Positions 6,529 to 61,257 of a stretch of DNA of 64,000 nucleotides are shown piece after piece (the stretch's first letter is position 1; every line of letters starts with the position of its first letter). This DNA is from Pseudomonas flavescens. Its GTDB lineage: Bacteria > Pseudomonadota > Gammaproteobacteria > Pseudomonadales > Pseudomonadaceae. The notes under the pieces are model-generated. The model was not told where the DNA came from, did not search any database, and was given only the letters and a program-made list of their open reading frames with translations. Location: positions 3,596,001 to 3,660,000 of the forward strand of contig NZ_JACBYV010000001.1 in assembly GCF_013408425.1 (NCBI RefSeq), read 5' to 3'. Made by a program: the position numbers and the translations under genes.

Positions 6529-6542
6529 GTGGATCTCCCTGT

Positions 6543-38092: not shown

Positions 38093-38484
38093 GGGGCCGA
38101 TTAGGATTCGACGCCGGTAGCGAAGCTCGAGGTGCATGCCGACTTGGTAACAGAAGTCGTAAATCCACTGTTGCAACTTTCTATAGTTGCCAATGACGAA
38201 AACTACGAGGGCTACGCTCTCGCTGCGTAAGCGGCGCGACTAGTCCTTCTGGTAGCTTCGGCTCCAGCGATCACTAGGGGATGCCTGTAAACCTGAAGTG
38301 ATTGTCATGCAGAACAGGATCGCCGCGTAGTACGTTGTGGACGAAGCGGCTAAAACTTACACAACTCGTCCAAAGCACCCTGCCCGTCGGGCGGCTGAGG
38401 ATTAACTTAATAGACACGGCTAAGCATGTAGTACCGACAGTGGAGAACTGGCGGACGGGGGTTCAAATCCCCCCGGCTCCACCA
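38093..38484 (+). ncRNA. ssrA: Transfer-messenger RNA (tmRNA)
   Basis: Complete tmRNA of 392 nt that rescues stalled ribosomes. It starts GGGGCCGATTAGGATTCGAC and ends with a T-arm (GGTTCAAATCC) and GGCTCCACCA, so CCA is encoded. The tag reading frame is at 38189-38230: GCC as resume codon, then AATGAC..., giving ANDENYEGYALAA and TAA. Its 3' end is the attachment site of the integrated island, and the gene is kept complete at the left junction. Its own terminator has been displaced to 60301. Confidence 0.98.
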
Positions 38485-38485
38485 A
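38462..38485. other. attL: left attachment site (ssrA 3' end)
   Basis: TTCAAATCCCCCCGGCTCCACCAA spans the T-arm and acceptor end of tmRNA. The copy at 60274-60296 is identical except for one missing base (GGCTCCACC versus GGCCCACC). These repeats bound the integrase-bearing island. Confidence 0.88.
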
Positions 38486-38495
38486 CACAACATCT

Positions 38496-38522
38496 AAAGA
38501 CGTCCACGGACGTCTTTTTTTG
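38496..38522 (+). terminator. Rho-independent terminator brought by the island
   Basis: AAAGACGTC, CACG loop, GACGTCTTT followed by eight T residues, 11 bp after the tmRNA 3' end. It substitutes for the native ssrA terminator now at 60301. Confidence 0.88.
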
Positions 38523-38597
38523 TGCCTGAAATCCAGTAAATACGGGGCTTTCAGCACCACCAGTGTCCGTGAGCGTCCCGCAAGATCTATGTCTTTT

Positions 38598-38667
38598 GGT
38601 ATTCCAAATGGTATTCCAAGCCTGCAAGTGCTAATTTTTGGAATACCAAAGCCTCTCGTGGAATACC
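38598..38667. repeat. Four GGTATTCCA arm-type repeats at the left end
   Basis: Direct copies at 38598-38606 and 38610-38618, inverted copies (TGGAATACC) at 38639-38647 and 38659-38667. The last ends one base before the integrase ATG, so a bound integrase or excisionase would block its expression. Matching copies lie next to attR (60199-60219). Confidence 0.8.
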
Positions 38668-38668
38668 A

Positions 38669-42243: not shown

Positions 42244-42891
42244 TTATGTCTCAGGATTGAGCTCAGGAGAGGGTGGCATTGTAGTAGGTACAGATGCTGA
42301 CGCTGCAAGGTTGGCAGCAAGATGCGTATTGAATCTGCACTGTAGTGCAAGGTCGTAAGCGACGTTGAAATGAGGCGCAAGGGAGCCACCCATTGACTGG
42401 TGCTGGCTGGTCACAGTGCAGTGATCAGCATCGGTAAGTAGATTCTTGAAGATGAGCCAAGAGTGCAGATGAGGGGTAGTCTGCGTGAGCGTGTTACCCA
42501 CGCTCACGGACAGCTTGCGCGCTTTCTGGTCATCGGTGATGAAGGCTTGACCGATCCTGGTCGCGAAAGCAATCGAAGATAACTCACCTTTGCCAAGTCG
42601 CCTCCGGCTTTCCAAATCCGCGATTGCCTGCAAGTCTCCAATGCTACAAGAATGGGGTTTGAACTTGCCTCGTTGCTGCTCACGTTTGAGCCGCTCTCTA
42701 AGCTCCAGGTCAGCTTCAGTTGGGTTCGTGCGGGGTTTGACCAGACACTCGTAATGGACGAATGCAGTCATGCAGAACTCACAATTCGCTTCCTGCGATG
42801 CCGCGTAGAGACGAGTAGATGACAACACATTCCAGACCGAACAAGTGTCTGCCACGTTCACCCGGTGGAATTTGGAAGGGTCAATGACCAT
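42244..42891 (-). CDS. Small PIN-like protein, toxin candidate of an ImmA pair
   Basis: 215-aa protein with a PIN-like pattern: Asp in NVADTCSVWNVL (about residue 14), Glu in VHYECLVK, Glu in GKGELSSIAFA and the paired Asp in AFITDDQKARKL. The C-terminal 70 residues have no recognised motif. Its ATG lies 11 bp inside the upstream XRE-ImmA gene, so translation is coupled. The order (regulator-protease first, PIN protein second) is that of known XRE-ImmA/PIN (DUF4411-like) toxin-antitoxin-style pairs. The frame runs farther upstream but has no better start. Confidence 0.65.
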   Translation of the reverse strand: MVIDPSKFHRVNVADTCSVWNVLSSTRLYAASQEANCEFCMTAFVHYECLVKPRTNPTEADLELRERLKREQQRGKFKPHSCSIGDLQAIADLESRRRLGKGELSSIAFATRIGQAFITDDQKARKLSVSVGNTLTQTTPHLHSWLIFKNLLTDADHCTVTSQHQSMGGSLAPHFNVAYDLALQCRFNTHLAANLAASASVPTTMPPSPELNPET

Positions 42892-44014
42892 GAAGGGATC
42901 GCCCGTAAAGTTTCGCGATTTCTGAAAGCTCGCTGTATCCACAAAGCAGGGCCTCAGATAGCCGCCCCAGACTGATAATGTCTTGGCTATAAGCGTCCAG
43001 GCAGAGGCCAACGTAGTAATCGGATAATCCACGCGCCAGCAAGGTCGCCTTTCGCACACGCTGCTGAGGAGACAGGCGTTCAGGGAGCTCCGGGTCGACT
43101 TTGGCCTCCCTTGGTACTCTATAGTGGCGAATCCGCCGGCTCGTCTCATTGTCGGCCAAGCCTGCTTCTTTGACAGCGATCCCCAAAGCATCGCAGCTCA
43201 CACTGAATTTATTGGCCCAGTGTTGGGCATCGCTTTCCGACCAACCAGCGGGATTTGGCAGCTTGTGAAGGACTTCCTCAGGCATGAGATAACAGGATGC
43301 GAATCGGTTCGCTCGCACCTCGTGCTTATCTGCCCCACCTCCCTGCAAGGTCACACTGGCGCCTTCACGGCTATCAAAAATGGAGTGAGCCATCTCATGA
43401 GCAGCGCTGAACCGCTGTCGATAGATGTCTTCACTGTAATTGACCAAGATGCATTTCCCAGCTGTGGGGTGCTGGATGAAAACACCCGAAATCTTGGAAT
43501 TGGAAAGCTTGCGGCGAAACACGTGGATACCTACTGATCGGAACTCAGTGTAGATGTCTAATGGCACCTGTCTTTCACCATGTCCCATCACTTTGCGCAG
43601 GGCCTTGGCTGCATCTTGCGCATGACCCTTGAAGTAGGTTCCTTTAGGTTCAAACAAGAACTCTTGGGATGTGCCTCTCAGTTCTTGGGTCAGGAACTGT
43701 TCAGTGTCACATAGGTACAAAAACTCCTGGATGGCCGCGCGGTCATCTTTCGAAAACTCCCGACCATGGGCTCTATACAAAGTTTCCGTCTGCTCGAACG
43801 GCGCGGTTTGCTCATTGGAGATAAAAAACTTGAAGTCGCACCGGTAGAAGTCGGCAAGGATCAGGATCTCGTCACCTGTTGGCTCAACAGCGCCCTTTTC
43901 AATTTCAGACAGCCGATCAGTCGAGATGGCCGTATCCATAGACACGTCATCCACCGTTATTTCTAACTGGTAGCGGTAACGCTGCAGTTTTTCACCGAGC
44001 GATTGAAGGTTCAT
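42881..44014 (-). CDS. XRE-HTH / ImmA-IrrE metallopeptidase fusion
   Basis: 377-aa two-domain protein. An XRE helix-turn-helix lies at about residues 5-60 (LGEKLQRYRYQLEITVDDVSMDTAISTDRLSEIE). The ImmA/IrrE zinc peptidase domain (COG2856) is centred on HEMAH (206-210), with a further ligand region in KHEVRANRFASCYLMP. Such proteins repress their operon and cleave partner regulators in response to stress. TTG at 44050 is in frame, but ATG 44014 starts at the HTH. It is first of the coupled pair with the PIN-like gene. Confidence 0.88.
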   Translation of the reverse strand: MNLQSLGEKLQRYRYQLEITVDDVSMDTAISTDRLSEIEKGAVEPTGDEILILADFYRCDFKFFISNEQTAPFEQTETLYRAHGREFSKDDRAAIQEFLYLCDTEQFLTQELRGTSQEFLFEPKGTYFKGHAQDAAKALRKVMGHGERQVPLDIYTEFRSVGIHVFRRKLSNSKISGVFIQHPTAGKCILVNYSEDIYRQRFSAAHEMAHSIFDSREGASVTLQGGGADKHEVRANRFASCYLMPEEVLHKLPNPAGWSESDAQHWANKFSVSCDALGIAVKEAGLADNETSRRIRHYRVPREAKVDPELPERLSPQQRVRKATLLARGLSDYYVGLCLDAYSQDIISLGRLSEALLCGYSELSEIAKLYGRSLHGH

Positions 44015-44178
44015 GTGCGCTGGATGTCCCAAACTGCAATGAAGAGTCAAAGTATCTTAACCTAGCTTATCCGGGAGGCAGACATTGCGGGGCCCCTTTT
44101 CTTCTGACGGATATTCGATTCAAAAAAATCTCAACCACACATAACTGCAATGACATCACCACCAAGAAGGTTCGTCCC

Positions 44179-47680: not shown

Positions 47681-47923
47681 ATGATGCTATTACGATTTCT
47701 GCTGCATCTATTTGTATTCATTGGCGCGCTGGCGGCAGCCGGGGCGTTGGTCGTGAGCATTGTGCTGATGCTGCGCTTCCCGCCCTTGATGATCGCCGTG
47801 GGGTCGGCATGCTGGCTCCTGAACTGTTTGCTCAAACTGCAACGCAAAATACTGACCAAGAGAGCCCAACGAAAAACTCCGCCTCACAATAGTGATCCAT
47901 GCCAAGCGTGCAAAGCTCATTAA
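47681..47923 (+). CDS. Small two-helix membrane protein
   Basis: 80-aa protein with two hydrophobic segments (LLRFLLHLFVFIGALAAAGALVVSIVLML and PLMIAVGSACWLL), a short positive loop and a basic tail (KLQRKILTKRAQRKTPP) with two Cys at the end. GGAGAACC precedes the ATG. Its last 4 bp overlap the end of the convergent HNH gene. Function unknown. Confidence 0.6.
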   Translation: MMLLRFLLHLFVFIGALAAAGALVVSIVLMLRFPPLMIAVGSACWLLNCLLKLQRKILTKRAQRKTPPHNSDPCQACKAH

Positions 47924-49017
47924 GCCAGATCAGCGATTACCTCATGAAGAAGATCGCCACGCATACACTCCAAAACCGCAATATGACGTAGGCAGCGTTC
48001 TTCTTTGCCTAGCTGCTCTCGCTTCCATACGATGTCGTCCTCAATCAGTAATCGAACCGAATCAGCGTCCGGCTGCCAACCATAGCTTTTGTCTCGCGCT
48101 GACTTTGCGACAAGCACAGAAATCCCCCTGTCCAAAACGCCATTAACTGAATTTGTCCATCGACTGTCCAAATCCAGTGTCGCTACAAGCGTTTCGGCTC
48201 GGCGAGGGACAGTCGGATCTGTAATATTGATTTTTACTTGGCGAGAATTGGCTGGAGATATAACTGCAGTCACCACAACCGATGGTGCACCTGGCCTTAG
48301 CATCGGGTGATAAGTGCCATTCAAACCTGAAGCATCTGCCTCCCCCATAGGAGCCCTAGCAAGTTTCCAAGTAGAGTTACACCCCTTGCATGCAGAGAAA
48401 AGATTAGCAGGGTGAATAGCTAAGTGAGGCCATTGAGACTTTGGGAAGAAGTGGTCGCAATCATTGGCTTCATGTTTGCTACCCAACTCGCCCAACGGCC
48501 CATCGCAGTAGCCACAGACATCTGGAGACTGTGAGCGGAACGCTCTCATCAGAGTAGCTCGATCGATCCGGCCATTCGTCAGCGCGAACGGCGCTGGGTC
48601 GAAACCACTACTGGCTAACCAGTCATAGTACGGAATAGCTATACCCTTGATGCCATCTAACCACTCCGGAAATAGGCGTGGGAAGCGGAGCTCTGTCCCG
48701 GTGAGATTCCACTGAGTGTGGAACTGTACATCGTGGGTAATTGCGTCGGCTACCGAAGCGGCTTGAGCAGAGTCCGACTGTGCCTGAGTGGCCAGCATCA
48801 TGACTGCGCGTCCAAATATCGTGCGTTTTTTGGGGCTACCAATCCTGGCCCAAAACCACTTACCGAGCGCCGGTCCAAACTGCTTTACCAAAAGAGTGTT
48901 GTCATCTAGCCCCAGAGGAGGCGTGCGCAGCAACCAATCAAGCAAGCGTAATTTGGCTGAATACACCCGTCCTAAATTTTGCGATAAGTCGGTGGGTAAG
49001 CGCCTTTCATGAAGCAT
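47920..49017 (-). CDS. HNH endonuclease linked to type I R-M (PtuB-like)
   Basis: 365-aa nuclease. Residues 1-160 are helical without a recognised motif. The HNH core spans about 165-217: zinc Cys pairs CGYC (168-171) and CKGC (210-213), catalytic DH in DCDHFFPKS (188-189) and the conserved Asn in PANLFSAC (205). A C-terminal region of about 150 aa follows. AAGGAG lies 5 bases before ATG 49017, inside the end of the AAA gene, so the two are translationally coupled. An ATPase followed by this kind of HNH protein is the Septu (PtuA/PtuB) arrangement. It is last in the defence operon and likely the DNA- or RNA-cleaving effector. Confidence 0.82.
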   Translation of the reverse strand: MLHERRLPTDLSQNLGRVYSAKLRLLDWLLRTPPLGLDDNTLLVKQFGPALGKWFWARIGSPKKRTIFGRAVMMLATQAQSDSAQAASVADAITHDVQFHTQWNLTGTELRFPRLFPEWLDGIKGIAIPYYDWLASSGFDPAPFALTNGRIDRATLMRAFRSQSPDVCGYCDGPLGELGSKHEANDCDHFFPKSQWPHLAIHPANLFSACKGCNSTWKLARAPMGEADASGLNGTYHPMLRPGAPSVVVTAVISPANSRQVKINITDPTVPRRAETLVATLDLDSRWTNSVNGVLDRGISVLVAKSARDKSYGWQPDADSVRLLIEDDIVWKREQLGKEERCLRHIAVLECMRGDLLHEVIADLA

Positions 49018-51013
49018 GAAAGGCTCCTTCCAGTGAACGACGCCACGCTCGTTTAAGCTCAACCTGGAAATAACCAGGGCCCGTCTGGCGAATGAATGAC
49101 TCGAGCAGCGCCTTCATGGTTAGAGGCTTCACTACATCGAAATACAAAGCAAAGCGTTCAAAGCTTTCTAGACAATCGATCACGTAGCTACGGGTAAGAC
49201 CGCTCTCAGTTTGCTGCGCTAACTGTAGGATGCGACTTATGAGGTCATCGTCCCATGCTCCATTGTTGCGCCAGCACTGTTCGACTTCAGTGCCAAAATG
49301 CGCAGTCGCAATGAGTACTTCGAGCAAGCGGCTTGCTCTCCTGCCTACCGTATCCTGCGCTCCAAAAATATCCCGTAACGGGTGATCTCCGGTTGCACCA
49401 AATGTGTATGTTTGGGCATCCAATTTACGAAGACCGGACTCGCTGGGGCCAGAATCGTCCTCGGTAGTCGTCCGCTCTAGTACGATCAATTCATCTTTGA
49501 GCGCATCGGTAAGCATCAAGGCGGCATGGGTTGCAATCAGGACGTCGGCAGATGTGTGTGCCAAGGCATCATCAACCACTGAGACCACGTCTCGCTTCCA
49601 CAGATCATTGAAGTGGGTTTCGGGTTCATCCAGCAGCAATAGGGAGTCCTGACGTCCGCTCAACAAATGCAGCAGAGCCATTCTGCTCATAAACATCTGC
49701 TCCCCGTCTGACAGCTCTTCGTAGCGCATTACGCCAATGTCACGTTTAGCAGAATCGGGCGCATCGACTGGTATGGCATGTCGACGCAACCGCAGCAGTA
49801 CGTCGTCAAATAGTCCCTTCTGGCTCAGCTCCAAAAGCCGGGTAAATAGGTCAAAGCTGCTGGCATCCCTGGCTCCGCCTAGCAAGACCCACAAGGCTTC
49901 GCCTTGGCTACGGCAATTTTCCAGTTCATCACGGGCGGACGATAAGAATGATTGCCCCTGACCGTCGAATGGCCCTTTTAAGTCAAACCACACAGTGCGA
50001 CTTAACTCCACAGGGTGAGGCTCGGCAATCACCTCACTTGCGCAAAGCCACCAATCGTGAGCAGTTTCGCAAAGCTTCTGATCCCATTGAGCCGGTTGCA
50101 GGCGCGAGCAGAACGCGACCGAAACTAGATGATGCCAACCGCCAAGCTTCAGCAGCTCTTGCACCGAGTTCTTGTTGTCGTCACGGCTGCGCAGTTTGGT
50201 CATCGTGGCATCAACGTCCGAGCGCGATGGATAGTTTGTCGCTTCACCAAACGCCTGGGGCAACGTCACCGCCAGCAGCGCACACTTCAAAAGCGTGGCG
50301 TCCAATAGTACGGGACGGCGGAAAAGGTCAGACACAGTGGTGTCTGGGCCCATGGCCTGCCGAGGACTATCAGTATCGTTTTGCCGTACCGCTTGCAAGG
50401 CGCTTTCCTGAGCAGCGGTCCAGCCTGCCGGGCGTTCGTCGCTTTGCGTGCTGTCGTCGCCTTCCAGAAAACCATCAGCGCTCTGGTTACGGTTCCACAC
50501 AGAGCGCCACGGACGCAGGTCGCCGCTGGTGTAGGCCAACACGGCCGACGGCAATGCGATCTGTGGCGGTGAGCTGTCGCGCAGCGGCCAGGTGCCAGGC
50601 TCAATGAGCGCCGAGAAACCTGGGAGCGCCGGCATACCCATGAGGTTCAGGTGTTCGATGCAGGTATCGAACACCTCTTGTTCGTTCTTATCGTCAAAAG
50701 CAAAGCGCTCGTGCAGCCATAAACTGGCTTGCTGACGGTTGCCCGGGCAGTGCAGCAGCAAGGTACGGTGATTTGTGGAACCGCGCACGCCCAATTCGTA
50801 AATCAGACTGACCGGAAATGCCGGCACCCGCAGATCGGCTAGAGCCAGGAACACCTCGGCCACAGCACGTAGAAGATTCGATTTTCCGCTGCCGTTTACA
50901 CCCACTACAAAACGGATGGCGCATTCACGCGCAAGCGGTGATCCGCTGGCGAAACACACTTTAATATCTGAGATCGGCGGGTAGTTCTGCAGGTGCAGGT
51001 ATCGCAGGCGCAT
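49007..51013 (-). CDS. Restriction-associated AAA/ABC-type ATPase (PtuA-like)
   Basis: 668-aa SMC/OLD-like ATPase. Walker A is GVNGSGKSN (38-45), an ABC-type signature appears as LSDGEQMFMSRMALLHLLSG (about 435-455), Walker B is LLLLDEPETHF, and a switch His follows in LIATHAALML. It opens MRLRYLHLQNYPPISDI, the first strand of this ATPase class. GGAGG and a TAATG junction with hsdS fix the start at 51013. It is of the kind described as restriction-system-associated AAA family ATPase, and with the HNH gene it matches the PtuA/PtuB pairing; it may sense invading DNA and control the HNH nuclease. No TOPRIM domain is evident. Confidence 0.85.
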   Translation of the reverse strand: MRLRYLHLQNYPPISDIKVCFASGSPLARECAIRFVVGVNGSGKSNLLRAVAEVFLALADLRVPAFPVSLIYELGVRGSTNHRTLLLHCPGNRQQASLWLHERFAFDDKNEQEVFDTCIEHLNLMGMPALPGFSALIEPGTWPLRDSSPPQIALPSAVLAYTSGDLRPWRSVWNRNQSADGFLEGDDSTQSDERPAGWTAAQESALQAVRQNDTDSPRQAMGPDTTVSDLFRRPVLLDATLLKCALLAVTLPQAFGEATNYPSRSDVDATMTKLRSRDDNKNSVQELLKLGGWHHLVSVAFCSRLQPAQWDQKLCETAHDWWLCASEVIAEPHPVELSRTVWFDLKGPFDGQGQSFLSSARDELENCRSQGEALWVLLGGARDASSFDLFTRLLELSQKGLFDDVLLRLRRHAIPVDAPDSAKRDIGVMRYEELSDGEQMFMSRMALLHLLSGRQDSLLLLDEPETHFNDLWKRDVVSVVDDALAHTSADVLIATHAALMLTDALKDELIVLERTTTEDDSGPSESGLRKLDAQTYTFGATGDHPLRDIFGAQDTVGRRASRLLEVLIATAHFGTEVEQCWRNNGAWDDDLISRILQLAQQTESGLTRSYVIDCLESFERFALYFDVVKPLTMKALLESFIRQTGPGYFQVELKRAWRRSLEGAFHAS

Positions 51014-52953
51014 TACACGACCTCCAGATCGACTTGCCACACCTCTGCCTTGAGACTACGGGCGATGTCCTCTTTGAGATCATCTAGCGAGGAGTAATGT
51101 TGACCCTGATCTACTAGGTGGATGAAATCCTTGTCTTCCTCGTCTACGACCGTCATCACCTGGAACATCCCGCTCGCACCAGCATGCTCAGAAGTCTCGT
51201 AATCCAGCTGGATCTCAAAGTAATAGCGCTGCTGATCAACTCCGAGCGACAACGCTTTCCGCAATGCCTGCACATCGACCATGCGCGTGAACTCTTCCGG
51301 GCGCAAGGGACGAAAGGCTTTGAGGTAATCGCACTCTCCACTGTCCGGGTCATGCTTGGGTAAAGTGATTTTGGCGACCAGCCCTAGCGCTGCTAGTTGG
51401 CTCAAGGAGCGGCGAATGCGATTGCCGTGAAATTGGCCAAAGGCTTGCAGGCGCTCAGCCACGGCTGAGTCGTCGCAGAAGCGGGAAAATACTTCAGGAT
51501 CTTCCACGAATAAGGGCTGTCCGCTTTGCTGGCAATACTCGATGAATGCCGTCAGCACCTGGCGCTGAAACTCACTGAGGTCGGCAAGGAGTCTATGGCG
51601 CGCAGGGGGCACACTGATATCTGCTTGTTTAGTTAAGCTGGGTTTGGCGGCGCTATTCTGGGAAACCTTTGCTCCGTGTTTGCGTAGTAGCGCATCACGA
51701 ACCCTGCCAGCCTCGACTATTTCGTCCGTGTGAAGTGCTCGCCATTGGGCAGTCAACTCTCCAATCAAGGCTCTCTGAGTAATGATCTCCTGCAATTCAG
51801 AATACAACTCCAACTTGCTAAGCATCTGTGCTCGCAGTAGCTCAATTTCACGCACGAACTTAGCGAACGCCTCTTGAAGCAGCAATGGTGGAAGCGGCAC
51901 TGTTATTCGCCCCAAGCCTGTTGGGCTAACGTTCGCCATGCTGACAGCCTGTTTGGCTGAATTCAAAAGACGATATTTCCCGTAGGCACTGTTTAAAGTC
52001 GCCCAGAGGTATTCCGGCAGCATTTCTGGCTTTAAGCGAAAGCGTACGAGGTAAGAAGCAAAGCTGTATGTGCCGGTAACAGGGCGCCAAACAGCACATT
52101 TACCGACCAGCTCCTTGGAGTTCGTCCGGTTGAACAGCAGGTCTCCATCTCGCAACTCGGTAGAACTGATGTCTTTTTTCGACAGACTGGCGTACTTGAG
52201 GTTTGACAGGTCTATCCAGCCACTGGTGGTGATGCTATTCATACGCAACACCGCGTGCGTTCCAGTCTCACCCATGGCTTCGGATACTCCGTACTGGGAG
52301 TCCGCCACGTAGTCGCTAATTCGAACGGGATCAATCAAACCATCAGCAGTGAACCATTTACCAAAGTACTCCCAGTAAGCAGTCCGAATTAGGTGATCAA
52401 ATTGATCGCTGATGGATTTCTTGGCCTTAGCCACTACCTCCGTCTGCCGCAGCACATCGACGATTCGCTGTTGCTCGGGGAGTGTAGGAAGCGGGATCTT
52501 CACTCGAGAGAGGAAGTCAGGCGGTACCCGCTGCAAGCCTCCTGTTCCCACAAACGCAGCTGCTGCCCGATCACGAAAGGCTTTCTGCCGAATAAAACTG
52601 AAAACATATTCAGGAAGTACAACCCCGGTCGGGCGCAGTACATGAAACTCTGTGGACCCAAAGCCCAATCCATTTTCAAGATCGCGTGCGACCGCGGCTT
52701 TCCCGTTTTCCATACAAGGCGTAACTTTCGCGAATAGCACGTCACGCTCACGAAAACTCGTATAACCCTTGGCAACCTCTGTAAACGAACGGGTTTCTGG
52801 CTTGCTGATAACGCCGCTATCTTCATCGACAGCGGACATAGGTACAAAAGTGACGGTGGTGCCGTCATTGGGTCGATCTTCGGCAAGTAGCCGAGGGTTG
52901 AGCTCGCAAATATCTGTTAGTCGAGCTTGCTCCCACGTTTCAGGCAAACTCAT
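51013..52953 (-). CDS. hsdS: Type I restriction specificity subunit HsdS with C-terminal extension
   Basis: 646 aa, about 200 longer than a usual HsdS. Target-recognition domain 1 spans about 1-155 (ETWEQARLTDICELNPRL...), conserved helix 1 follows PLPTLPEQQRIVDVLRQTE (about 160-200), domain 2 spans about 205-355, and conserved helix 2 follows VPLPPLLLQEAFAKFVREIE. Residues about 410-646 are extra: a linker, a segment that looks like a winged helix (LSEFQRQVLTAFIEYCQQSG... RIRRSLSQLAALGLVAKITL) and an alpha/beta tail ending VWQVDLEVV. It overlaps hsdM by 4 bp and the ATPase by 1 bp. It directs sequence recognition; the extension may contact the ATPase. Confidence 0.9.
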   Translation of the reverse strand: MSLPETWEQARLTDICELNPRLLAEDRPNDGTTVTFVPMSAVDEDSGVISKPETRSFTEVAKGYTSFRERDVLFAKVTPCMENGKAAVARDLENGLGFGSTEFHVLRPTGVVLPEYVFSFIRQKAFRDRAAAAFVGTGGLQRVPPDFLSRVKIPLPTLPEQQRIVDVLRQTEVVAKAKKSISDQFDHLIRTAYWEYFGKWFTADGLIDPVRISDYVADSQYGVSEAMGETGTHAVLRMNSITTSGWIDLSNLKYASLSKKDISSTELRDGDLLFNRTNSKELVGKCAVWRPVTGTYSFASYLVRFRLKPEMLPEYLWATLNSAYGKYRLLNSAKQAVSMANVSPTGLGRITVPLPPLLLQEAFAKFVREIELLRAQMLSKLELYSELQEIITQRALIGELTAQWRALHTDEIVEAGRVRDALLRKHGAKVSQNSAAKPSLTKQADISVPPARHRLLADLSEFQRQVLTAFIEYCQQSGQPLFVEDPEVFSRFCDDSAVAERLQAFGQFHGNRIRRSLSQLAALGLVAKITLPKHDPDSGECDYLKAFRPLRPEEFTRMVDVQALRKALSLGVDQQRYYFEIQLDYETSEHAGASGMFQVMTVVDEEDKDFIHLVDQGQHYSSLDDLKEDIARSLKAEVWQVDLEVV

Positions 52954-54464
52954 TCCCGCCCCTCCACCATCGCTAGCAACTTGTCCAAGCCATTGATGAT
53001 GTCTTGCTCGGTGGTTTTGAGTGTGCCGATTAACTCAGCCACACTCTTGTCGCTCTTAAGTTGGGTGAAATCAAAAGGCTTGTACTGCCCAGCGGACAGG
53101 TTCCACTCGCGCGCCTCAATACAGTCCGGGTCGAGCAAGCCATCCTTGAGTGCGCCCTTATCGTCGTAAAGCCCATCGGCCAACATTGCTTGCACGTAGC
53201 TCGGGCGCACCCAGCCATCGGCATCGTGTGAGCCGATGAGCTGACCATCTTCACTCTGCCATTCGTCGTTGCGCGCCCAGTCACGCACAGACACCACCCA
53301 ATGCTTGGCCGCGCTGAGCTCAGTGGCCTGATCAATAGCCAAGCTGCGCAGGGTGACGTCGAAGCCGTCGAGTTTGGCGACTTCGCGGGCCGTTTCAGTC
53401 AGCTTTTCTCCGATGTCATGTACCGTCATGGCCTTGGGCGGCTGATTGCCTCGCAATAGGCCCAGTACATAGACGTCGCGTTGAACCTCAGCGAGTGCTG
53501 TCTTAACTAAGTCTTTCCAGATCGAGAGCGCTGGAGAGTCTTCTTTTTCGAAAAATGCCTCCATCTCACGGGCCAATTTCTTGAATTGCGCCTCAAAGGG
53601 CTTAGCTGCTTTTTTCCAAGCATCTATGAGTTCGGAATCGGTGATTTCTTCGACAAGGCGTGCGCTAATCGTGGCATTCCAGGCCTTTTGTGCAGCTGGG
53701 GTAAGTGCCTGTAGTGCCAATTCAATCAACACACTCCCAGAGGCTGACCGCACCTTCTCTTCAGCCTCTTTGGGATTGGCAGGAAGCTCGGGAAACAGCT
53801 CGCGTATACCCCACACCTGACCGTCCCACATGCTGGTGTCGGCTAAGGCTGAAAATGCCTCACCAGCAGGCGTAAGCTTGTCGGCGGTATCGCGCAGCAG
53901 GGCCTGACGCCACCGCTCAGTGTAAAAGCGGGGTTGCAACAGCGTTTTCTCATTGAGCTGCGCGCCTGAGCGTCCTTGCGAAATCCAGGCTTTGAACTTT
54001 TCAAGCGCATCCCACAGGTCGTTCTGTTGGCCAGGACGGGCACTACGCTTGGCATCTTTGGAGTAGCCGTCTTCCTCCACTTCATAAAACCAGACGTGTT
54101 CACTGAGTGGTGTGGCGTTGCTGGGCAAGGTTTGTTTGTTGTCACGGCGTGTGACTTTTCTGAAAATCAAGATGGAGGTCTTAACACCGGTATAGGGCTG
54201 AAAGACCCCACCTGGAAGAGAGATGACGCCCTCCACCACGTGCTCGGCAAGGAGCTCTCGGCGCAGGCGCACGTGAGCATCGGTATTACCGAACAGGACG
54301 CCCTCAGGAATGATCACTGCGCACCGGCCACCAATATCCAGCAAGTCGAGCATCAACCATAAAAAGAGAAGTTCGCTTTTATTGGTGATCGTGTCCCCTT
54401 TTTTCTTGCCGTGTCCCGTCCTGAATAAGGTTTACACCTTCTGCCCGAGAATCTGGAGAACTCA

Positions 54465-54863
54465 ATGGAGCAAGGTGCTAAACGTACGCAGCGTGATTAC
54501 TCGCTGACTTTTAAATTGTCGGTGGTCGATCAGATCGAAAAAGGCGAGCTGACCTATAAACAGGCTCAGGACCGGTATGGCATTCAGGGCAAGTCCACTG
54601 TTTTGGTATGGTTGCGTAAGCATGGTCGGCAGGATTGGAGTCAGGGGGCCTCGATTCGAGCCGGCAGGAGCCAGATCGTGACCGATCCCAAAGACCTGAC
54701 GCCCGAGCAACGCATCAAGGATCTGGAGCAGCAACTGCAGTTCATGAGCCAGAAGGCACAGTTCTTTGAAGCTGTGGTCGACGTGCTGAAGAAGGATTAC
54801 GGTGTTTCGATCGTAAAAAAGCGACCCGGCAAGTCATCTCGCAAGGGCAAGCCCAAGGGCTGA
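54465..54863 (+). CDS. IS3-family transposase OrfA
   Basis: 132-aa DNA-binding subunit: N-terminal helix-turn-helix (YSLTFKLSVVDQIEKGELTYKQAQDRYGIQGKSTVLVWLRKHG) and a leucine-zipper-like coiled coil (LTPEQRIKDLEQQLQFM). The slippery heptamer A-AAA-AAG near its 3' end permits the -1 shift that makes OrfAB. Alone it acts as a regulator of transposition. Confidence 0.92.
   Translation: MEQGAKRTQRDYSLTFKLSVVDQIEKGELTYKQAQDRYGIQGKSTVLVWLRKHGRQDWSQGASIRAGRSQIVTDPKDLTPEQRIKDLEQQLQFMSQKAQFFEAVVDVLKKDYGVSIVKKRPGKSSRKGKPKG
54815..54821 (+). promoter_or_regulatory. Programmed -1 frameshift heptamer A AAA AAG
   Basis: Lies in frame as GTA AAA AAG of orfA. Slippage by -1 continues into GCG ACC CGG of the orfB frame, which is open to 55684. 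A GC-rich stretch follows, but I did not model a stimulatory stem. Confidence 0.85.
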
Positions 54864-55684
54864 GCATCGTCAGGGCTTGCCAGTTTCTATCCATCAGTCG
54901 CCAGGCTTATTACAAGCACAACCGTGTTGCTGATCAGCGCGCTATACAGAATGAGCTGATCGCGTGTTATGTCCAGCGGTTAAGGCTTCGCCAGCCAAGG
55001 ATCGGCACGCGCAAGTTACATTACCTTCTGCACCGCCAACCCAATGACAGCCTGAAGGTCGGGCGCGACCGGCTATTCAAGATATTGGCCGAACACCGCC
55101 TGCTGGTACTGCCCAAGCGCGCGTATCACAAGACCACGCAGAGCTTTCATCGTTTTTATCGGCATCCGAACCTGCTCAAGTCTGGAGCTGATCAGATTAC
55201 GGCGACAGCGCCCGACCATGTTTGGGTGGCGGATATCACCTATCTGCCGGCCCGAGGCGGCCCGCTGTATCTGAGCTTGGTCACGGATGCGTACTCCCGA
55301 AAGATCGTCGGCCATCACGTCCATGAAGGCTTGCATGCAGAGTCCGTGGCGGTTGCCTTCAGGCGAGCACTAAAAAGACGCCAGGGTAACCAGGTACTCG
55401 TCCATCATTCTGATCGCGGAATCCAGTATTGCTCAGCGCTCTACCAGGCACTGCACAAATACCACGGTGTGCAGTGTTCGATGACCGATGGCTACGACTG
55501 CTATCAGAACGCGCTTGCGGAGCGGGTCAATGGAATTCTGAAGAACGAACTGCTGCTACGCAGCCCCAATGATCTAGAACAGGCCAGATCAATGGTTAGC
55601 GAGGCGGTCAGGATCTACAACACGGAGCGGCCGCATCTGGCCCTGAAATACAAAACGCCCGATGCGGTGCATCGGGCATTTTGA
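54821..55684 (+). CDS. IS3-family transposase OrfB (DDE catalytic part of OrfAB)
   Basis: About 287 residues in the -1 frame relative to orfA, read after slippage at 54815. An HTH_21 region (SISRQAYYKHN...PRIGTRKLHYLL) precedes an rve integrase core with the DDE triad: Asp in HVWVADITYL, Asp in LVHHSDRGIQYC, Glu in NALAERVNGILK. It ends YKTPDAVHRAF. No good independent start is seen, so OrfB is probably made only as the OrfAB fusion (54465-55684). Confidence 0.9.
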   Translation, partial: ATRQVISQGQAQGLSIVRACQFLSISRQAYYKHNRVADQRAIQNELIACYVQRLRLRQPRIGTRKLHYLLHRQPNDSLKVGRDRLFKILAEHRLLVLPKRAYHKTTQSFHRFYRHPNLLKSGADQITATAPDHVWVADITYLPARGGPLYLSLVTDAYSRKIVGHHVHEGLHAESVAVAFRRALKRRQGNQVLVHHSDRGIQYCSALYQALHKYHGVQCSMTDGYDCYQNALAERVNGILKNELLLRSPNDLEQARSMVSEAVRIYNTERPHLALKYKTPDAVHRAF

Positions 55685-56748
55685 GTACCGCAAACCTAGC
55701 TGAAACGGTGTAAACCTATTTCAGGACTAGACACCGCCACCGCCGACACGCGGGAAAAGTAAGGTGTCGGGCTCAAGATCGCCGCTGTCGACCGTACCGG
55801 TAAAGGGTGGGTTGGCCAATACGAACTGGTAGCTGCCTGGTTCCAACAGCTCCTTGAGCTTGACCTTTCCTTCGCGCTTGCTTAGTGAGTCGCCCTGCAG
55901 CAGGTGCGGGTCGTTGACGTCGTGCAGCACCAGGTTCATCCAGCCGATGCGGGCCATGGTACGGTCGTTATCCAAGCCGACGAAATTGGCTCCGTTGTGG
56001 ATAGCGGCGTATTGCTCAGGTGTTGCCGCAGCGCCATCGGTACGATGTGGAGTGCCGTCCCATTCGAGCACGAGGTTTTCTTGCGCTGAGTATTTGCGCA
56101 TCAGATGCTGCTGGGTACTGAACAAGAAGCCACCTGTGCCGGCGGCAGGGTCGATGACACGTTGGCCGGGCTCGGGGTCGAGCAACTCGACCATAAACCG
56201 GATCAGATGACGTGGGGTGCGGAACTGGCCATTCTTACCCGCCGTAGCGACTTCGCTGAGCAGGTACTCAAAAGTGTCACCCATGATGTCTTGGGCAGCA
56301 GAACCCTCACCAGCACGGGCGAAGAGCTGGTCGATAGCGTCAATAGCATCCGACAACACCTTGCCTTTATTAGGATCGAGCTGAAAGTAAGCATCAGCCA
56401 TGCGGTTATTCAAGCTGGCCAGCTCGGTGCCGTCAGCGCTAGTGTTGCTGAAATGCTTTTCGAGCTCGCGGAGCCAGGGAAACACTACGTCGATTAAGTG
56501 ACTCGGATTGGTTTTCTCATGGCGGATATAGCTCCACCTACAAGATTCAAACTCAGTATAAATTGACCGGAAACCACGCTGTAGCCGCTTGAAATCTATG
56601 TCTTCCAGTCGCTTAAGAAAGAGTAGATAGGTGATCTGCTCGACTGCCACCAAGGGGTTGGTGAGGCCGGCAGCCCAGAAGCGGTTCCAGAGTTCGTCGA
56701 CTTTTTTCTTGATATGAGGGGCAAGCATTCAGCAGTGTCCTTGATGGA

Positions 56749-59481
56749 TCAGGCAGTCTCATCCAATAAGTTGTTGGTGAGGCTGATGAGTTCGTCGATG
56801 TCTTGCGACGGAAATAGCGTTTCCACGCGCCCTACACGCGACAGCGGAGGTTCGTTGAGTGCAGCGCGGGTAATGCGCCCGTGGCGCAGCACAGCAGCCT
56901 TTACGGCCCGCAGGAAGTTGAGTTGGTTGGCACGCAAATAGCCGTGTGCGGCAATGAACGCATCGAACGCGGCATTGATGCGCTGCTCACGGTTAGGCAG
57001 GCGTGTGCCTTCGCAAAGTATGTGACGCAGGACTTCGGTCAGCGATGCGGCGGGGGCTTCAAAGGCTTTGCGCAAAGTGTCCTCGGTGACAAATAGATCG
57101 GCCTGGTTCAGCGTGTTGCTGATTCGTTCCAGCTCGTCGTCACCTACATGCTCGCCTTGCTTGAGCTTAGCCAACTCAGGAAGCTGGTTAGCCAGTCGGT
57201 GCACCAGTGCCTCTACCTGCTCGCGATAGCTTTCTGCAAAAGCACCTTCACCCGTGGGGCCGTAGATGATCCAACTGCGCTGTGTGATGCTGTCAGGCAG
57301 GTTGATTTCAACCGTGCGGCTGGGTGTTGTGGTGCGGTAGCGCATCAGCGGGGCGAATACGGTTTGTAGTGTGATCAAACGCGCCATATCCAAGTGCTGC
57401 CAAAAGCCGGCCGACTGAACCCAGGCACGTTGTTCAGCTACACGCTGCACCTGAGGGATGTTTTCGGCCAGACTTTCAATCGCCTCGTGAATGCGCTCAC
57501 GCACTTTGGCCTGTTCGCCTGCGTCACCTTTAAGCCAAGCCACTGAGAGACGCTCGCACCAAATGCGAAATTGAAGTTCATCCAGGCCAGCCAGTGGGGC
57601 TAGTCGCATCAGGGGGGCGATGGCTTGCGACAGGAGTTCAATTGCGCTTTGACTGGGCTTTGGCCATTGCGCTGCCAGCGCGTCGAGCTCGTCCCAGTGC
57701 GGACGTACATTGATGCTGTGACGGGGCAATGCCTGCAGCATCGCCTGCAGATCGGCAATGGTGGCTTGTGTATCTTGCTGCTGTGCTTCCAGGAGTTGCC
57801 ACTTTTCAAGCTGCAGTCGAAACAGGCGAACCGGTAGCGGTTCGCTGGGATGGTCGACCTCGCCGTCGGGTTTGAGCTTGAAATACGCGAAATTTTTCCA
57901 GTGATCGATGATCAAGAAATCTTTCTTGATCTCACCGGTGGCCTTGTCGGTATGCAGCCGCGTGCCGCGCCCGATCATCTGCCAGAACTTAACCTTGCTA
58001 AACACAGGCTTCGCGAAGACCAAGTTTTGGATGGCGGGGACGTCTACGCCGGTGTCGAGCATGTCCACCGAAATAGCCACACGCGGCATGGTGCGGTACT
58101 TGAAATCATCCAGCGTCGCGTCAGCGCGCTCCATATGGCTATCGATAATTTCAGCCATGCCTTGGCGCTGCAGCTCAGGATACAGACGGTTAAATCCCTC
58201 GTAGAGCCGCTTTGCATGGGCGTGGCTAACGGCGAAGATGATGGACTTGTGTGGTAGGCCGCGCACATCTTTGCGGCTCTTATCCATAAACTCTCGCACC
58301 ATGGCATCGTTGGTGCCTTGGTTGATGAATCCCTTTTCGATGTCACTGCCATCGAAGTTGAGCTCATCAAGCTCAACGCCTTGATCGCGAGCCATTTGTT
58401 TCAAGGGCTCGGGTAGTGCGTCACCTTGGATGCCCTGAAGCTGAAAATTGGTTTGTGCATCCAGCACACGGTAGTTGACCAGGTTCTGGTCGGCAATCGC
58501 TTGCTCGTAGCTGTAGTAGTAGCTGGGCGCGCCGTCACCGCAATCAAACAGTTCGAAAGTGTTGTGATCGATGTAGTCAGTGGGGGTCGCTGTCAGCCCG
58601 AGCTGGATGGCGTCGAAGTGATCGAAGACGGCCTTATATCGTTGGTAAATAGAACGGTGGCTTTCATCGGCCACGATCAGATCGTAGTAACCAACCGACA
58701 GGCGCGAATAAACCTGCATCATGCTGGGATAGGTTGAGAACTGAATGCGTGCGCCGGAGGTTTCGCCGGACTCGATGCGAGCCAAACTCTCGTTGGGTAA
58801 GTGGGACTTGAACTCCGACATAGCTTGGCGCACTAACTCCCGGCGGTCGGCCAGGAATAGGACTCGCTGCACGCGCTTTGATCGCAGCAAAGTATCAACA
58901 AGGGCGATGGTCGTCCGAGTCTTACCTGTGCCTGTAGCCATCACCAGCAAGAATTTGCGCTTAGCCGCATCTACCCCTTCAGTGACACGCCGAATAGCTT
59001 CGTTCTGATAGTCGCGGCCTGCGATCGCAGCGCTGATGGTGACTCCGCCCAGCGACTGAGCAAACTGCCGCTGATGGCGCAGTCGCTCTAAGTCGTCTCG
59101 CGTGTAGAACCCCGAGATTTTTCGGGGCGCATAGCGCTCACGATCCCAGAATTGAATCTCTTTGCCGTTGGTGAGAAAAATGAAGGGATCGTTACCGAAT
59201 TTGGCCTTGATTGCGTCTGCGTAGTCAGCGGCCTGACGCTTTCCAGCGAGCTCATCACGCGATGACCGCTTGGCCTCGACTACAGCAATCGGATTGCCAT
59301 CTGAACCGAGAAGAACGTAGTCAGCAAATTGCTCGGGGCCATAGTTGCCGGCGGGCTCGGCTGTTTTGAGCAAAAATTCTTCGACAAGAGTCCGCCTACC
59401 TTGAGACCAGCCAGCATGAGCAAGCTGAGAGTCGATGACCTGAGCTCTTGTTTGCGCTTCATTGCGGCTCGGAGTAGTCAT
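56749..59481 (-). CDS. hsdR: Type I restriction endonuclease subunit HsdR
   Basis: 910-aa motor-nuclease. The N-terminal PD-(D/E)xK nuclease has Asp54 and Glu69-x-Lys71 (DYVLLGSDGNPIAVVEAK). The helicase core has Walker A ATGTGKT (182-189), DESH (272-275), GLTATP and QMIGRGTRL. The C-terminal helical domain is EcoEI-like. It is the translocating and cutting subunit and requires the M2S methyltransferase. Its ATG overlaps the HTH gene by 4 bp, and hsdM follows after 20 bp. The gene is intact although its partner hsdM is broken. Confidence 0.94.
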   Translation of the reverse strand: MTTPSRNEAQTRAQVIDSQLAHAGWSQGRRTLVEEFLLKTAEPAGNYGPEQFADYVLLGSDGNPIAVVEAKRSSRDELAGKRQAADYADAIKAKFGNDPFIFLTNGKEIQFWDRERYAPRKISGFYTRDDLERLRHQRQFAQSLGGVTISAAIAGRDYQNEAIRRVTEGVDAAKRKFLLVMATGTGKTRTTIALVDTLLRSKRVQRVLFLADRRELVRQAMSEFKSHLPNESLARIESGETSGARIQFSTYPSMMQVYSRLSVGYYDLIVADESHRSIYQRYKAVFDHFDAIQLGLTATPTDYIDHNTFELFDCGDGAPSYYYSYEQAIADQNLVNYRVLDAQTNFQLQGIQGDALPEPLKQMARDQGVELDELNFDGSDIEKGFINQGTNDAMVREFMDKSRKDVRGLPHKSIIFAVSHAHAKRLYEGFNRLYPELQRQGMAEIIDSHMERADATLDDFKYRTMPRVAISVDMLDTGVDVPAIQNLVFAKPVFSKVKFWQMIGRGTRLHTDKATGEIKKDFLIIDHWKNFAYFKLKPDGEVDHPSEPLPVRLFRLQLEKWQLLEAQQQDTQATIADLQAMLQALPRHSINVRPHWDELDALAAQWPKPSQSAIELLSQAIAPLMRLAPLAGLDELQFRIWCERLSVAWLKGDAGEQAKVRERIHEAIESLAENIPQVQRVAEQRAWVQSAGFWQHLDMARLITLQTVFAPLMRYRTTTPSRTVEINLPDSITQRSWIIYGPTGEGAFAESYREQVEALVHRLANQLPELAKLKQGEHVGDDELERISNTLNQADLFVTEDTLRKAFEAPAASLTEVLRHILCEGTRLPNREQRINAAFDAFIAAHGYLRANQLNFLRAVKAAVLRHGRITRAALNEPPLSRVGRVETLFPSQDIDELISLTNNLLDETA

Positions 59482-59681
59482 TGCTCATTCCCTGAGTTTT
59501 GGTGCTCGTCTGCGCCACCCGCACGCACCCACTCATCGACCTCAGATAGCTGAAACTTCCATAGACGACCAACTTTGTGCGCCGGCAAAGCCTTACGCTC
59601 GCGCCAGCGATACACCGTGTCTTTGGCCACCCCCAAGTGAAGGGAAACCTGTTCGGCAGTGACCCAAGGTTCAGTGCTCAT
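59478..59681 (-). CDS. Excisionase-like helix-turn-helix protein
   Basis: 67-aa HTH_17-type protein (PWVTAEQVSLHLGVAKDTVYRWRERKALPAHKVGRLWKFQLSEVDEWVRAGG), covering nearly the whole protein. ATG 59681 is chosen because the domain begins there; the longer frame upstream is not family-like. It overlaps the hsdR start by 4 bp and leads the restriction operon, where such genes commonly stand and probably act as transcriptional regulators. An alternative is excisionase for the island, as it is near attR. Confidence 0.82.
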   Translation of the reverse strand: MSTEPWVTAEQVSLHLGVAKDTVYRWRERKALPAHKVGRLWKFQLSEVDEWVRAGGADEHQNSGNEQ

Positions 59682-59910
59682 TATGGTTACGCTCAAGCTT
59701 AAGCAGCCATAGTCGTTTAAAGTCGGCTGAAGTCTATCAGCATGAAGGACACTGCTGTAGTGATTCGCCAGTGAAAAACGGTGAAAAGCGCTGCACCTAG
59801 GAGCAGGATTCAGAAGACCAGCTATCGGCCCTCTCAAGGCATCCCCATCAGCAACCACCAAGAGCTGCTGATGCTCGTCGACCAAGAAGAGATAGGTCGC
59901 AATGAACTGA

Positions 59911-60120
59911 AAGCGTAATCACGGAATCAAGAGGCGCTGGAACCGTAAGCAATTCGCCGAGCGCTCAGCTGGCAAGAAGCAGGTCAACGTCCTGCTATCC
60001 ATAATGTTGATCGCCCGACTCGACTCGCTAGCCAAGCAGCACAGAGTGAAACGCGCTCAAATCATTGAGACCCTGGTGAGCAGTAATTCTGACGCTAGCG
60101 TGCCCCTTCATGTCGATTAA
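59911..60120 (+). pseudogene. Ribbon-helix-helix-like fragment without a clear start
   Basis: A 69-codon open frame (KRNHGIKRRWNRKQFAERSAG, then KKQVNVLL...IARLDSLAKQHRVKRAQIIETLV) that ends TAA at 60118. The second half has the strand-helix-helix look of CopG/Arc regulators. There is no ATG, GTG or TTG at a sensible place and a TGA lies directly upstream, so the gene has probably lost its 5' part or is frameshifted. It could once have regulated the neighbouring operon. Confidence 0.4.
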
Positions 60121-60198
60121 CGGAGGGGGCGCCGCCAGGGATAATCGGACGAACCTCTAAACTCATATCAGCATGCCGAGCTCGTTTTCAACCAGCCA

Positions 60199-60219
60199 AG
60201 TATTCCAAAAGGTATTCCA
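60199..60219. repeat. Two GGTATTCCA-type arm repeats near attR
   Basis: AGTATTCCA (60199-60207, one mismatch) and GGTATTCCA (60211-60219), matching the four copies in front of int. Repeats at both island ends are expected for arm-type integrase or excisionase binding. Confidence 0.75.
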
Positions 60220-60273
60220 CCGAGCTTTACACCCAAGATTTTCCTTTTATATTTCAAATATATACCCAGTATT

Positions 60274-60296
60274 TTCAAATCCCCCCGGCCCACCAA
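60274..60296. other. attR: right attachment site
   Basis: TTCAAATCCCCCCGGCCCACCAA, the same as attL (38462-38485) but for one missing T. Directly followed by the original ssrA terminator. Confidence 0.88.
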
Positions 60297-60300
60297 ATAA

Positions 60301-60342
60301 GCCTCTGAAGACCAAAAGGTTTTCAGAGGCTTTTTCTTTTTG
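60301..60342 (+). terminator. Displaced native ssrA terminator
   Basis: GCCTCTGAA (60301-60309) pairs with TTCAGAGGC (60322-60330) around GACCAAAAGGT, followed by TTTTTCTTTTTG. Its place just beyond attR shows it belonged to ssrA before the island entered. Confidence 0.85.
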
Positions 60343-60378
60343 CGTGTCCTTCCTGGCACTCCCAGCCTGACCACACAC

Positions 60379-61257
60379 TCACCTCTCCCCATCCAGAAAG
60401 GCGATCAATGCCTGCACCCGGGCACTTCTGTCCTTGCGAATGGGCACCAGCAGTTGAATCGGTGCACTGCCGAAGGACCATTGCTCCAGCAAACGCACCA
60501 GCGTTCCTCGGGCAATGCCATCGCGGACATCCCATTCGGACCTCAGTAGCAACCCGTGGCCCTGCTCCGCCCACTGGCGGGCGATAACGCCGTCGTTGCA
60601 TACCAGCGTTGGCTCGATCCTCACGGTTTGGCTGACGCCTGACCGGCGCACATGCCAGAGCGTCGCGTCCTCTTCATTCTCACGGATGCAGATGCAGCGG
60701 TGCGCAGCCAGCTCGCCGGGATTTTGCGGGCCGCCGTGGGTATCGAGGTATGCGGGGCTCGCGCAAAGCCATCGTTCATTGGTTGCCAGCGTTCGTGCGA
60801 CCCATGAGCTATCGCGAACCGCGCCTATGTGGATCACCGCATCGCTGTCATGACGGTCCGGCCAAGGGGTTTCGCGCAGGTCCAGATGCACCTTGAGCGA
60901 GGGATGGCGCCGGGCGAACCTGGAAAGCAAGGGAGCCACGAATTTGCGCCCATAGCCGAACGAAGTGGCCAGACGCAGCGTTCCGGTCAGTTGCCCTTGA
61001 GGCTCGCGAAACGTTTCACAGAGGCCATCGATTCGCTCGAGAAGCGCGACGCTCTCGGCGGCCAGTCGCTCCCCTTCGGCGGTCAGGCTGAGCCGCTGCG
61101 CATCGCGGTTCGCGAGCTTCGCGCCCAGGGCGGCCTCGAGCTTGCGCAGCCGCATCGACAGAGCAGGAGGCGTCACGTTGAGCATTCGTGCCGCGGCGCT
61201 CAGCGAGCCAGCTTTCGCCAACGTGGCGGCAAGGCGCATGTCTTCGACGGAGATCAT
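60379..61257 (-). CDS. LysR-family transcriptional regulator
   Basis: 292-aa LTTR: HTH at about residues 5-62 (MRLAATLAKAGSLSAAARMLNVTPPALSMRLRKLEAALGAKL), then the effector domain (LTGTLRLATSFGYGRKFVAPLLSRFARRHPSLKVHL). It resembles the DsdC/AaeR-like subgroup that often controls a divergent transporter or oxidoreductase. It is divergent from the TauE/SafE permease over 184 bp, so that gene is its likely target. Confidence 0.88.
   Translation of the reverse strand: MISVEDMRLAATLAKAGSLSAAARMLNVTPPALSMRLRKLEAALGAKLANRDAQRLSLTAEGERLAAESVALLERIDGLCETFREPQGQLTGTLRLATSFGYGRKFVAPLLSRFARRHPSLKVHLDLRETPWPDRHDSDAVIHIGAVRDSSWVARTLATNERWLCASPAYLDTHGGPQNPGELAAHRCICIRENEEDATLWHVRRSGVSQTVRIEPTLVCNDGVIARQWAEQGHGLLLRSEWDVRDGIARGTLVRLLEQWSFGSAPIQLLVPIRKDRSARVQALIAFLDGER

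Follow-up and report, generated by a model that had tools for sequence, protein, structure and literature searches.

A type I restriction-modification operon of Pseudomonas flavescens ends in a PtuAB-like ATPase/HNH pair that may serve as its built-in effector

The window analysed here is a 64,000-nucleotide stretch of the Pseudomonas flavescens genome (assembly GCF_013408425.1, contig NZ_JACBYV010000001.1, positions 3,596,001 to 3,660,000). Towards its right end six genes follow one another on the minus strand, encoding a small helix-turn-helix (HTH) protein, the three subunits of a type I restriction-modification (R-M) system (HsdR, HsdM and HsdS), an ATP-binding cassette (ABC)-type ATPase and an HNH nuclease (Table 1). 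The important question is whether the last two genes are functionally tied to the R-M system or merely ride along with it. The domains of all three R-M subunits are present, i.e. motor/nuclease in R, N6 methylase in M and specificity in S; HsdR scores 272 bits with NF046051, below its cut-off of 550. The genes are closely packed, with an ATGA overlap between the HTH gene and hsdR, a 20-bp gap between hsdR and hsdM, a second ATGA overlap between hsdM and hsdS, a TAATG junction between hsdS and the ATPase gene and an 11-bp overlap between the ATPase and HNH genes. The HTH_17 protein is likely the regulator of the operon, and a homologue lies immediately upstream of hsdR in the related loci L020, L022, L023, L024 and L026. 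A promoter scan of 54300-60400 returned two promoter-like sites, both on the plus strand (~60.1 and ~60.2 kb), where shuffled sequences give 3.8. The first-pass annotation had described this order, strand and set of junctions, and coordinates and domains bear it out in all but one respect, namely the uninterrupted hsdM that it implied.

In this strain, hsdM is split by an insertion sequence (IS) of the IS3 family, with imperfect terminal repeats (TGTC...GACA) and a CCG flank on each side, both noted by eye. The N-terminal open frame continues into the IS and ends at 55727 after 333 codons, and the hsdM frame resumes past the element, so that the operon genes do not form the single unbroken translated unit that had been proposed. 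The two parts are 92% and 87% identical to residues 1-335 and 330-817, respectively, of an intact HsdM from Pantoea. Two further copies of the element elsewhere in the genome align at 100%, from which it follows that the insertion is recent. Because the IS splits hsdM, the R-M system of this strain is probably inactive, a dead copy, and the genes downstream of the element are possibly silenced. An intact set of HsdR, HsdM and HsdS is thus lacking in this genome, and hsdM is intact in relatives such as L008 and L022 (the latter from Pseudomonas alcaligenes). The ATPase and HNH genes are intact here despite the broken hsdM. In Pseudomonas benzenivorans (L011), whose HsdR is the closest to that of the window (97% identity), a broken hsdM likewise adjoins an open ATPase/HNH pair; there, hsdM lies in two frames (5617-8070), which is either a second break or a sequencing error.

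Table 1 Features of the operon in the window, in order of transcription.
Feature	Position	Strand	Basis or remark
HTH_17 protein, 67 amino acids (aa), MAD1-like	59478-59681	-	First operon gene; PF12728 2.5e-14
hsdR, 910 aa, EcoAI/EcoEI-like type I motor subunit	56749-59481	-	Pfam ResIII, EcoEI_R_C, HSDR_N
hsdM, N-terminal part	55734-56728	-	Pfam HsdM_N, N6_Mtase; start 56728
IS3-family element, 1,322 bp, inside hsdM	54412-55733	+	orfB 206.8 bits (cut-off 160)
hsdM, C-terminal part	52950-54411	-	52953-53933 codes for the C-terminal extension
hsdS, 646 aa, specificity subunit	51013-52953	-	Pfam Methylase_S; C-terminal ~216 residues are an extension
ABC-type (AAA_21) ATPase, 668 aa, PtuA-like	49007-51013	-	Pfam AAA_21, motifs, profile and fold searches
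HNH nuclease, 365 aa, PtuB-like	47920-49017	-	PtuB core match, motif, fold

The ATPase has a Walker A motif (residues 38-45), an SDGE signature (435-438), a Walker B motif (LDEPE, 461-465) and an H-loop histidine (H496). All four elements of a PtuA-type ATPase are therefore intact, and V37-K44, S435-E438, L461-E465 and H496 are invariant across 38 sequences. The HNH protein, which has no Pfam match at 1e-3, carries the motif residues C168/C171, D188/H189, N205 and C210/C213/N214, consistent with a PtuB-fold HNH nuclease whose H, N and zinc cysteines are all preserved, encoded immediately behind a ptuA-like gene. When solved structures were searched by profile and by fold, PtuA and PtuB entries ranked first, in agreement with the resemblance to Septu noticed in the first-pass annotation; in one fold search of the ATPase, Rad50 ties with PtuA, its heads scoring nearly as high, and the global template-modelling (TM) scores of the Foldseek rows are only 0.22-0.33. 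Judged by sequence, the ATPase and HNH protein are intact remote relatives of PtuA and PtuB. This kinship would also suit a stand-alone Septu-like pair that detects infection by itself and is only carried along by the R-M operon, as TgvAB can in Vibrio cholerae VPI-2: TgvAB, embedded in a type I R-M cluster, protects without the R-M genes, and alone it protected less against several phages (PMC11411939).

Assignment to a named system was less successful. The HNH protein scores 24.3 bits with the curated PtuB model NF041761 (cut-off 150) and 20.7 bits with TIGR02646 (cut-off 52.15), and the ATPase is not listed for the PtuA model NF041760 at 1e-3. These Septu cut-offs are a weak test, as they are missed by a clear Septu pair (L103: PtuA 60.7/500, PtuB 49.7/150, TIGR02646 31.1 bits); we nevertheless do not file the pair as Septu and call it PtuAB-like instead. 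L103 is a second pair of the window's own genome (L103:5984-8030; G000:C1 ~778000-780000), with a PtuA of 476 aa and a PtuB of 214 aa that reach 569.7 and 358.6 bits with PtuA and PtuB models, and it has a SIR2/ThsA-like gene nearby (L103:10194-11171, 96.9 bits with a ThsA model). A retron I-A was set aside, as a scan of ten proteins from the window turned up no reverse transcriptase (msr-msd was not searched for). MADS was rejected because all scores are below the cut-offs, with 58.8/80 bits for MAD1 (NF047737), 91 and 22.8/720 for MAD2 (one value for each hsdM part) and 33.1/400 for MAD5, and the ATPase likewise stays below the cut-off of TIGR04435 (102.5 bits vs 300).

The order R-M-S-ATPase-HNH recurs far beyond chance. 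Among 72,556 plasmid records, tblastn picked out one close relative, an intact operon of this order on a Pantoea agglomerans plasmid (ATPase 88% and HNH 81% identical to those of the window, the HNH being annotated as 'hypothetical protein'), and an alignment of three ATPases searched against genome contigs gave 39 loci, including L047, whose Herpetosiphon record was in the query. Loci were mapped by seed BLAST, with the window, Pantoea and Herpetosiphon as seeds, and by home-made profiles trained on the same loci. The HNH gene follows the ATPase gene in 39 of these 40 loci, the exception (L043) ending within the ATPase. Upstream sequence is readable in 39 loci (not L033), and hsdS lies immediately upstream of the ATPase gene in 33 of them, a count that includes contig-end pieces (L012, L031 and L034) and a short remnant (L029). 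Four Chloroflexota loci (L046-L049) have a second methylase in this position (MT1-S-MT2-ATPase-HNH), so that one or the other adjoins the ATPase gene in 37 of 39 loci. The remaining two have hsdS or methylase pieces upstream past a transposase. In L028 this transposase is IS200-like and separates hsdS pieces from the ATPase; in L045 it is IS1595-like and has a match to a second methylase on one side and, on the other, an unnamed frame that comes before the ATPase. Among the 39 loci with readable upstream sequence, no free-standing copy of this ATPase clade was seen. All this argues against a stand-alone pair, and it disposes of the possibility that the order is unique to this genome. Where at least 6.5 kb of upstream sequence is present, hsdR is found in 29 of 32 loci (not in L029, L045 and L049), and hsdS and the ATPase gene overlap by 1 base in 13 loci, as in the window, and by 4 bases in 11 (leaving out L045, whose hsdS match is 16 bits). 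The ATPase and HNH genes, too, mostly overlap or abut. The order occurs in Pseudomonadota, Cyanobacteriota, Chloroflexota and one Bacillota metagenome-assembled genome. The system is rare, with an ATPase match at 1e-10 in 2 of 369 genomes of the class, including the window's own; a search of viral contigs gave two stretches, neither confirmed as this ATPase. L028, L045 and L029, the last with an hsdS remnant and its HNH in two frames, are relatives struck by mobile elements or decay.

The wider circle of relatives was approached via TIGR04435, which NCBI named 'restriction system-associated AAA ATPase' for its association with R-M systems. The model matches 10 of 398 genomes of the phylum at 1e-15, one above its cut-off, at 12 places representing 11 genes (two places in G365 were read as one split gene). 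Context was tallied for nine genes, leaving out G465 and G608: seven stand behind hsdS (G704, G603, G768, G365, G721, G464 and the window), and two are not part of an R-M operon within the sequence retrieved (G777 and the Septu pair L103). In G338 the genes for R, M, S, ATPase and HNH again follow one another in this sequence, with an extra frame between R and M. A TIGR04435 member (L096) and a relative (L097) are also in R-M-S-ATPase-HNH order; the model, however, does not extend beyond the ATPase, and the HNH partners tested from four loci (L096, L097, L011 and L035) have no NCBIfam match at 1e-3. The pair at L099 scores high with PtuA and PtuB models (ATPase 655.7 bits with PADLOC PDLC00293, partner 287.6 bits), which indicates that PtuAB-like pairs stand behind hsdS in more than one PtuA clade. 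In favour of a stand-alone pair, related pairs outside R-M operons do exist (L100, L103 and L010). L010:6121-8582 is an Azospirillum AAA-HNH pair near hxsD of a His-Xaa-Ser system; the stretch displayed around it has no annotated hsdS.

Within the subgroup to which the window belongs, the R-M proteins themselves are unusual. HsdM has a C-terminal extension of ~330 residues, and intact Pseudomonadota operons near the window encode HsdM proteins of 815-856 residues. HsdM relatives at 1e-60 occur in 24 other genomes of 398 (25 places; context viewed in G704 alone), and none aligns past residue 494; on plasmids, 29 of 30 records stop by residue 497, the Pantoea plasmid being the other. The last 327 residues alone find only this plasmid among the 72,556, and two of 378 genomes (the window's own and G768), and the whole HsdM at 1e-100 finds two of 381 genomes of the order (its own and G1061); these genome searches scored only the best candidates of each genome (at most 2, 5 and 2 among the matches shown). 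The hsdM of L023 (Serratia sp. Ag1) has no match in the E. coli genomes searched. Extended HsdM was found at four loci, all four with ATPase and HNH. The HsdS extension is 121-217 residues long across 19 loci, and its last 206 residues match the Pantoea plasmid only among plasmids. Neither extension has a Pfam match at 0.1. The finding of the subgroup's HsdM and HsdS extensions only in these operons again speaks against a stand-alone pair, and the extensions are candidate docking sites.

Identity matrices for 42 loci (L043, L029, L057 and L047, the last being the same record as L009, were dropped) and trees of the individual parts show that the ATPase is a mosaic. Two HNH types were named before any tree, alpha (window, L008, L022 and L016) and beta (the rest). 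The window and L011 are 97% identical in HsdR and 78% in ATPase residues 1-409, falling to 42% in ATPase residues 441-668 and 22% in the HNH; between the window and L016 the corresponding ATPase and HNH values are 56%, 63% and 49%. A single branch separates alpha from the other loci both for the HNH (30 rows; Shimodaira-Hasegawa-like approximate likelihood ratio test, SH-aLRT, 100) and for ATPase residues 440-end (25 rows; 100/100). Alpha is scattered in the tree of ATPase residues 1-409 (26 rows, L053 being the same sequence as L014; approximately unbiased (AU) test p 0.00015, with starred branches that force three changes) and in the HsdR tree (20 rows, a quick tree; p 5.7e-6). In Methylobacter (L041, 10004-11830), a foreign ATPase N-half (40% to L028) precedes a C-half (89%) and an HNH (64%) of the beta type, which on sequence grounds is an exchange in the reverse direction. 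Scanning the ATPase in 60-residue blocks (21 loci), the correlation with the HNH rises from a rho of 0.29 (361-420) to 0.68 (401-460) and then 0.75-0.83, and over the same stretch that with ATPase residues 1-300 falls from 0.77 to 0.38, which places the switch between residues ~400 and ~440. In Mantel tests against the HNH, none of 2000 permutations reaches the value for ATPase residues 481-668, and 53 of 2000 do for residues 1-300. Across 19 loci with the HsdS extension (L011 absent), rho of the pairwise identities is 0.91 for HsdS extension and ATPase N-half, 0.86 for ATPase C-half and HNH and 0.32 for the two ATPase halves; without L032 and L041 the values are 0.84, 0.82 and 0.31. The HsdS extension correlates with HsdR at 0.77, and the target recognition domains (TRDs) of HsdS with everything at 0.26 or less. 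As read from these alignments, residues 1 to ~400 of the ATPase follow HsdR and the HsdS extension and residues from ~440 onward follow the HNH, and two HNH types have been swapped repeatedly between operons in Pseudomonadota. For the stand-alone pair, the result cuts both ways, since exchange of the HNH cassette is independent of the R-M genes, whereas the ATPase N-half tracks HsdR and the HsdS extension.

Taken together, we consider it an even bet that the locus is a composite defence operon, an EcoAI/EcoEI-like type I R-M system with a built-in PtuAB-like effector, in line with the composite system that the first-pass annotation had proposed. The pair would then be a further layer of antiphage defence coupled to R-M. 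In such an operon, the N-half of the ATPase (the Walker A lobe with its insert) would contact the R-M complex and sense its state, in the window's subgroup perhaps via the HsdS and HsdM extensions, and the C-half would hold the HNH. Blocking of the R-M complex by an anti-restriction protein, or its engagement on invading DNA, would change the state of the ATPase and release the HNH, which would then cut tRNA or DNA and so stop the infection; the HNH cassette would be exchanged between operons. For the pair, it is the gating, trigger and target that we infer. A different possibility, which we regard as quite improbable, is that the pair is an extra nuclease of restriction, loaded on R-M-bound, nicked or cut DNA and degrading it without abortive infection. 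Co-variation with HsdS and HsdR would be expected in this case as well, and PMC11555353 states that the PtuAB of E. coli ATCC25922 reportedly acts on phage DNA carrying nicks. Other PtuAB pairs, by contrast, deplete or cleave tRNA-Tyr (PMC11555353, PMC13096335), and HsdR retains its own motor and nuclease-type domains, leaving no obvious need for another nuclease.

Several observations weigh against the composite operon. The ATPase and HNH frames are open beside a broken hsdM both in this strain and in L011, which argues that the mere absence of R-M does not free the toxin, unless expression has been lost; IS polarity could explain why the broken hsdM is tolerated in this strain. The ATPase N-half correlates only moderately with HsdM (0.56-0.67, or 0.34-0.44 without L032 and L041), and the HsdS extension reaches 0.43 against the ATPase C-half and 0.38 against the HNH as well. 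The best-correlated parts, HsdS extension with N-half and C-half with HNH, are DNA neighbours, so that linkage adds to both values. Within the 17 beta loci alone (from matrices of 17 and 18 loci), the switch is weak, with rho against the HNH of 0.23-0.46 for N-half blocks and 0.43-0.56 for C-half blocks, so the two-module contrast rests on alpha vs beta and on L041. The test in the converse direction, from the HsdM extension to the pair, covers only four loci, all of them among the 40 or the window itself. Finally, cyanobacterial operons with the pair have HsdM proteins of 625-634 residues, and in L096, L097, L098 and L099, which also carry it, HsdM has only 554, 528, 488 and 493 residues. Docking on a long HsdM extension is thus not a general rule, and distant operons that retain the pair without one favour a stand-alone pair. 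We nevertheless consider a stand-alone pair unlikely: the private HsdM and HsdS extensions, and an ATPase N-half that follows HsdR and the HsdS extension, make the composite operon the somewhat favoured reading. A more specific version of it, put forward tentatively as somewhat unlikely, is that the ATPase is a two-sided adaptor. Its Walker A half would serve the R-M machine, docking in the subgroup on the HsdM and HsdS domains, and its signature/Walker B half would serve the nuclease, with nucleases swapped by recombination inside the ATPase gene as TRDs are inside hsdS.

The operon is probably on an acquired island, since the GC content drops from ~0.65 to ~0.54 at 38 kb, beside a tmRNA gene and an integrase-like frame. 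These lie at 38093-39925, where the tmRNA gene (tag ANDENYEGYALAA) is followed by the integrase-like open frame (38669-39925, by eye), and the island likely starts at ssrA. A search for a repeat of the ssrA 3' end that would mark the far island edge gave one site only, with up to 2 mismatches allowed in the genome and 3 in the window. Closer to the operon (42244-44050) lies an HTH plus ImmA/IrrE-type protein (Peptidase_M78; up to 78 bits with PADLOC RmrA models), which is adjoined by a PIN-like open frame (by eye); these form a possible toxin-antitoxin or defence pair.

How does the locus compare with known systems? Like the PtuAB of Septu and retron I-A, the pair consists of an ABC ATPase followed by an HNH nuclease with the motif residues kept, but its HNH is 365 residues long, compared to 205-258 in ten PtuB chains, and it stands behind hsdS with no reverse transcriptase among the proteins scanned. 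Krishnan et al. (2020) reportedly described ABC ATPases acting with R-M systems. PrrC is likewise an effector with an ABC ATPase that is linked to a type I R-M operon; EcoprrI silences it, and Stp turns it on upon neutralisation of R-M (PMC2610378). Unlike PrrC, which is a single protein with its own tRNase site, the operon has two genes, and their gating is putative. In retron-Eco7, PtuAB is neutralised by reverse transcriptase and msr-msd and depletes tRNA-Tyr (PMC11555353), and a Septu cleaves tRNA-Tyr (PMC13096335). Pairs of ABC ATPase and nuclease beside modification-based defence, acting as its backup, are already published, with AriA of the PARIS pair (AriA/AriB) detecting Ocr, and with OLD-ABC plus nuclease dyads, HNH ones among them, reported beside BREX and R-M-like systems; PARIS has a different nuclease, the hosts are BREX systems, and the excerpt of that paper contains no shared-extension or swap analysis (PMC12839542). 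TgvAB, DarTG2 and the known Septu inside Hma operons are also two-gene modules within modification-based operons (PMC11411939, PMC12255303, PMC8565338), but with other effectors or host operons, whereas the pair of the window is last and directly behind hsdS. In the literature covered, which is partial, we found no description of the five-gene R-M-S-ATPase-HNH unit, the subgroup HsdM and HsdS extensions or the exchange boundary in the ATPase. The general idea is therefore already published, and what is added here are the subgroup extensions and the swap boundary.

If the composite operon is real, the principle of PrrC, in which a type I R-M system holds an effector, would extend to PtuAB-like effectors, and PtuAB would be a general effector that is plugged into different sensors (a retron, an R-M system) or works alone. 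The mosaic ATPase offers a testable boundary between a sensing and an effector half. Should the adaptor version hold as well, a single operon would have two exchangeable parts, one for recognition and one for the response to blocked recognition.

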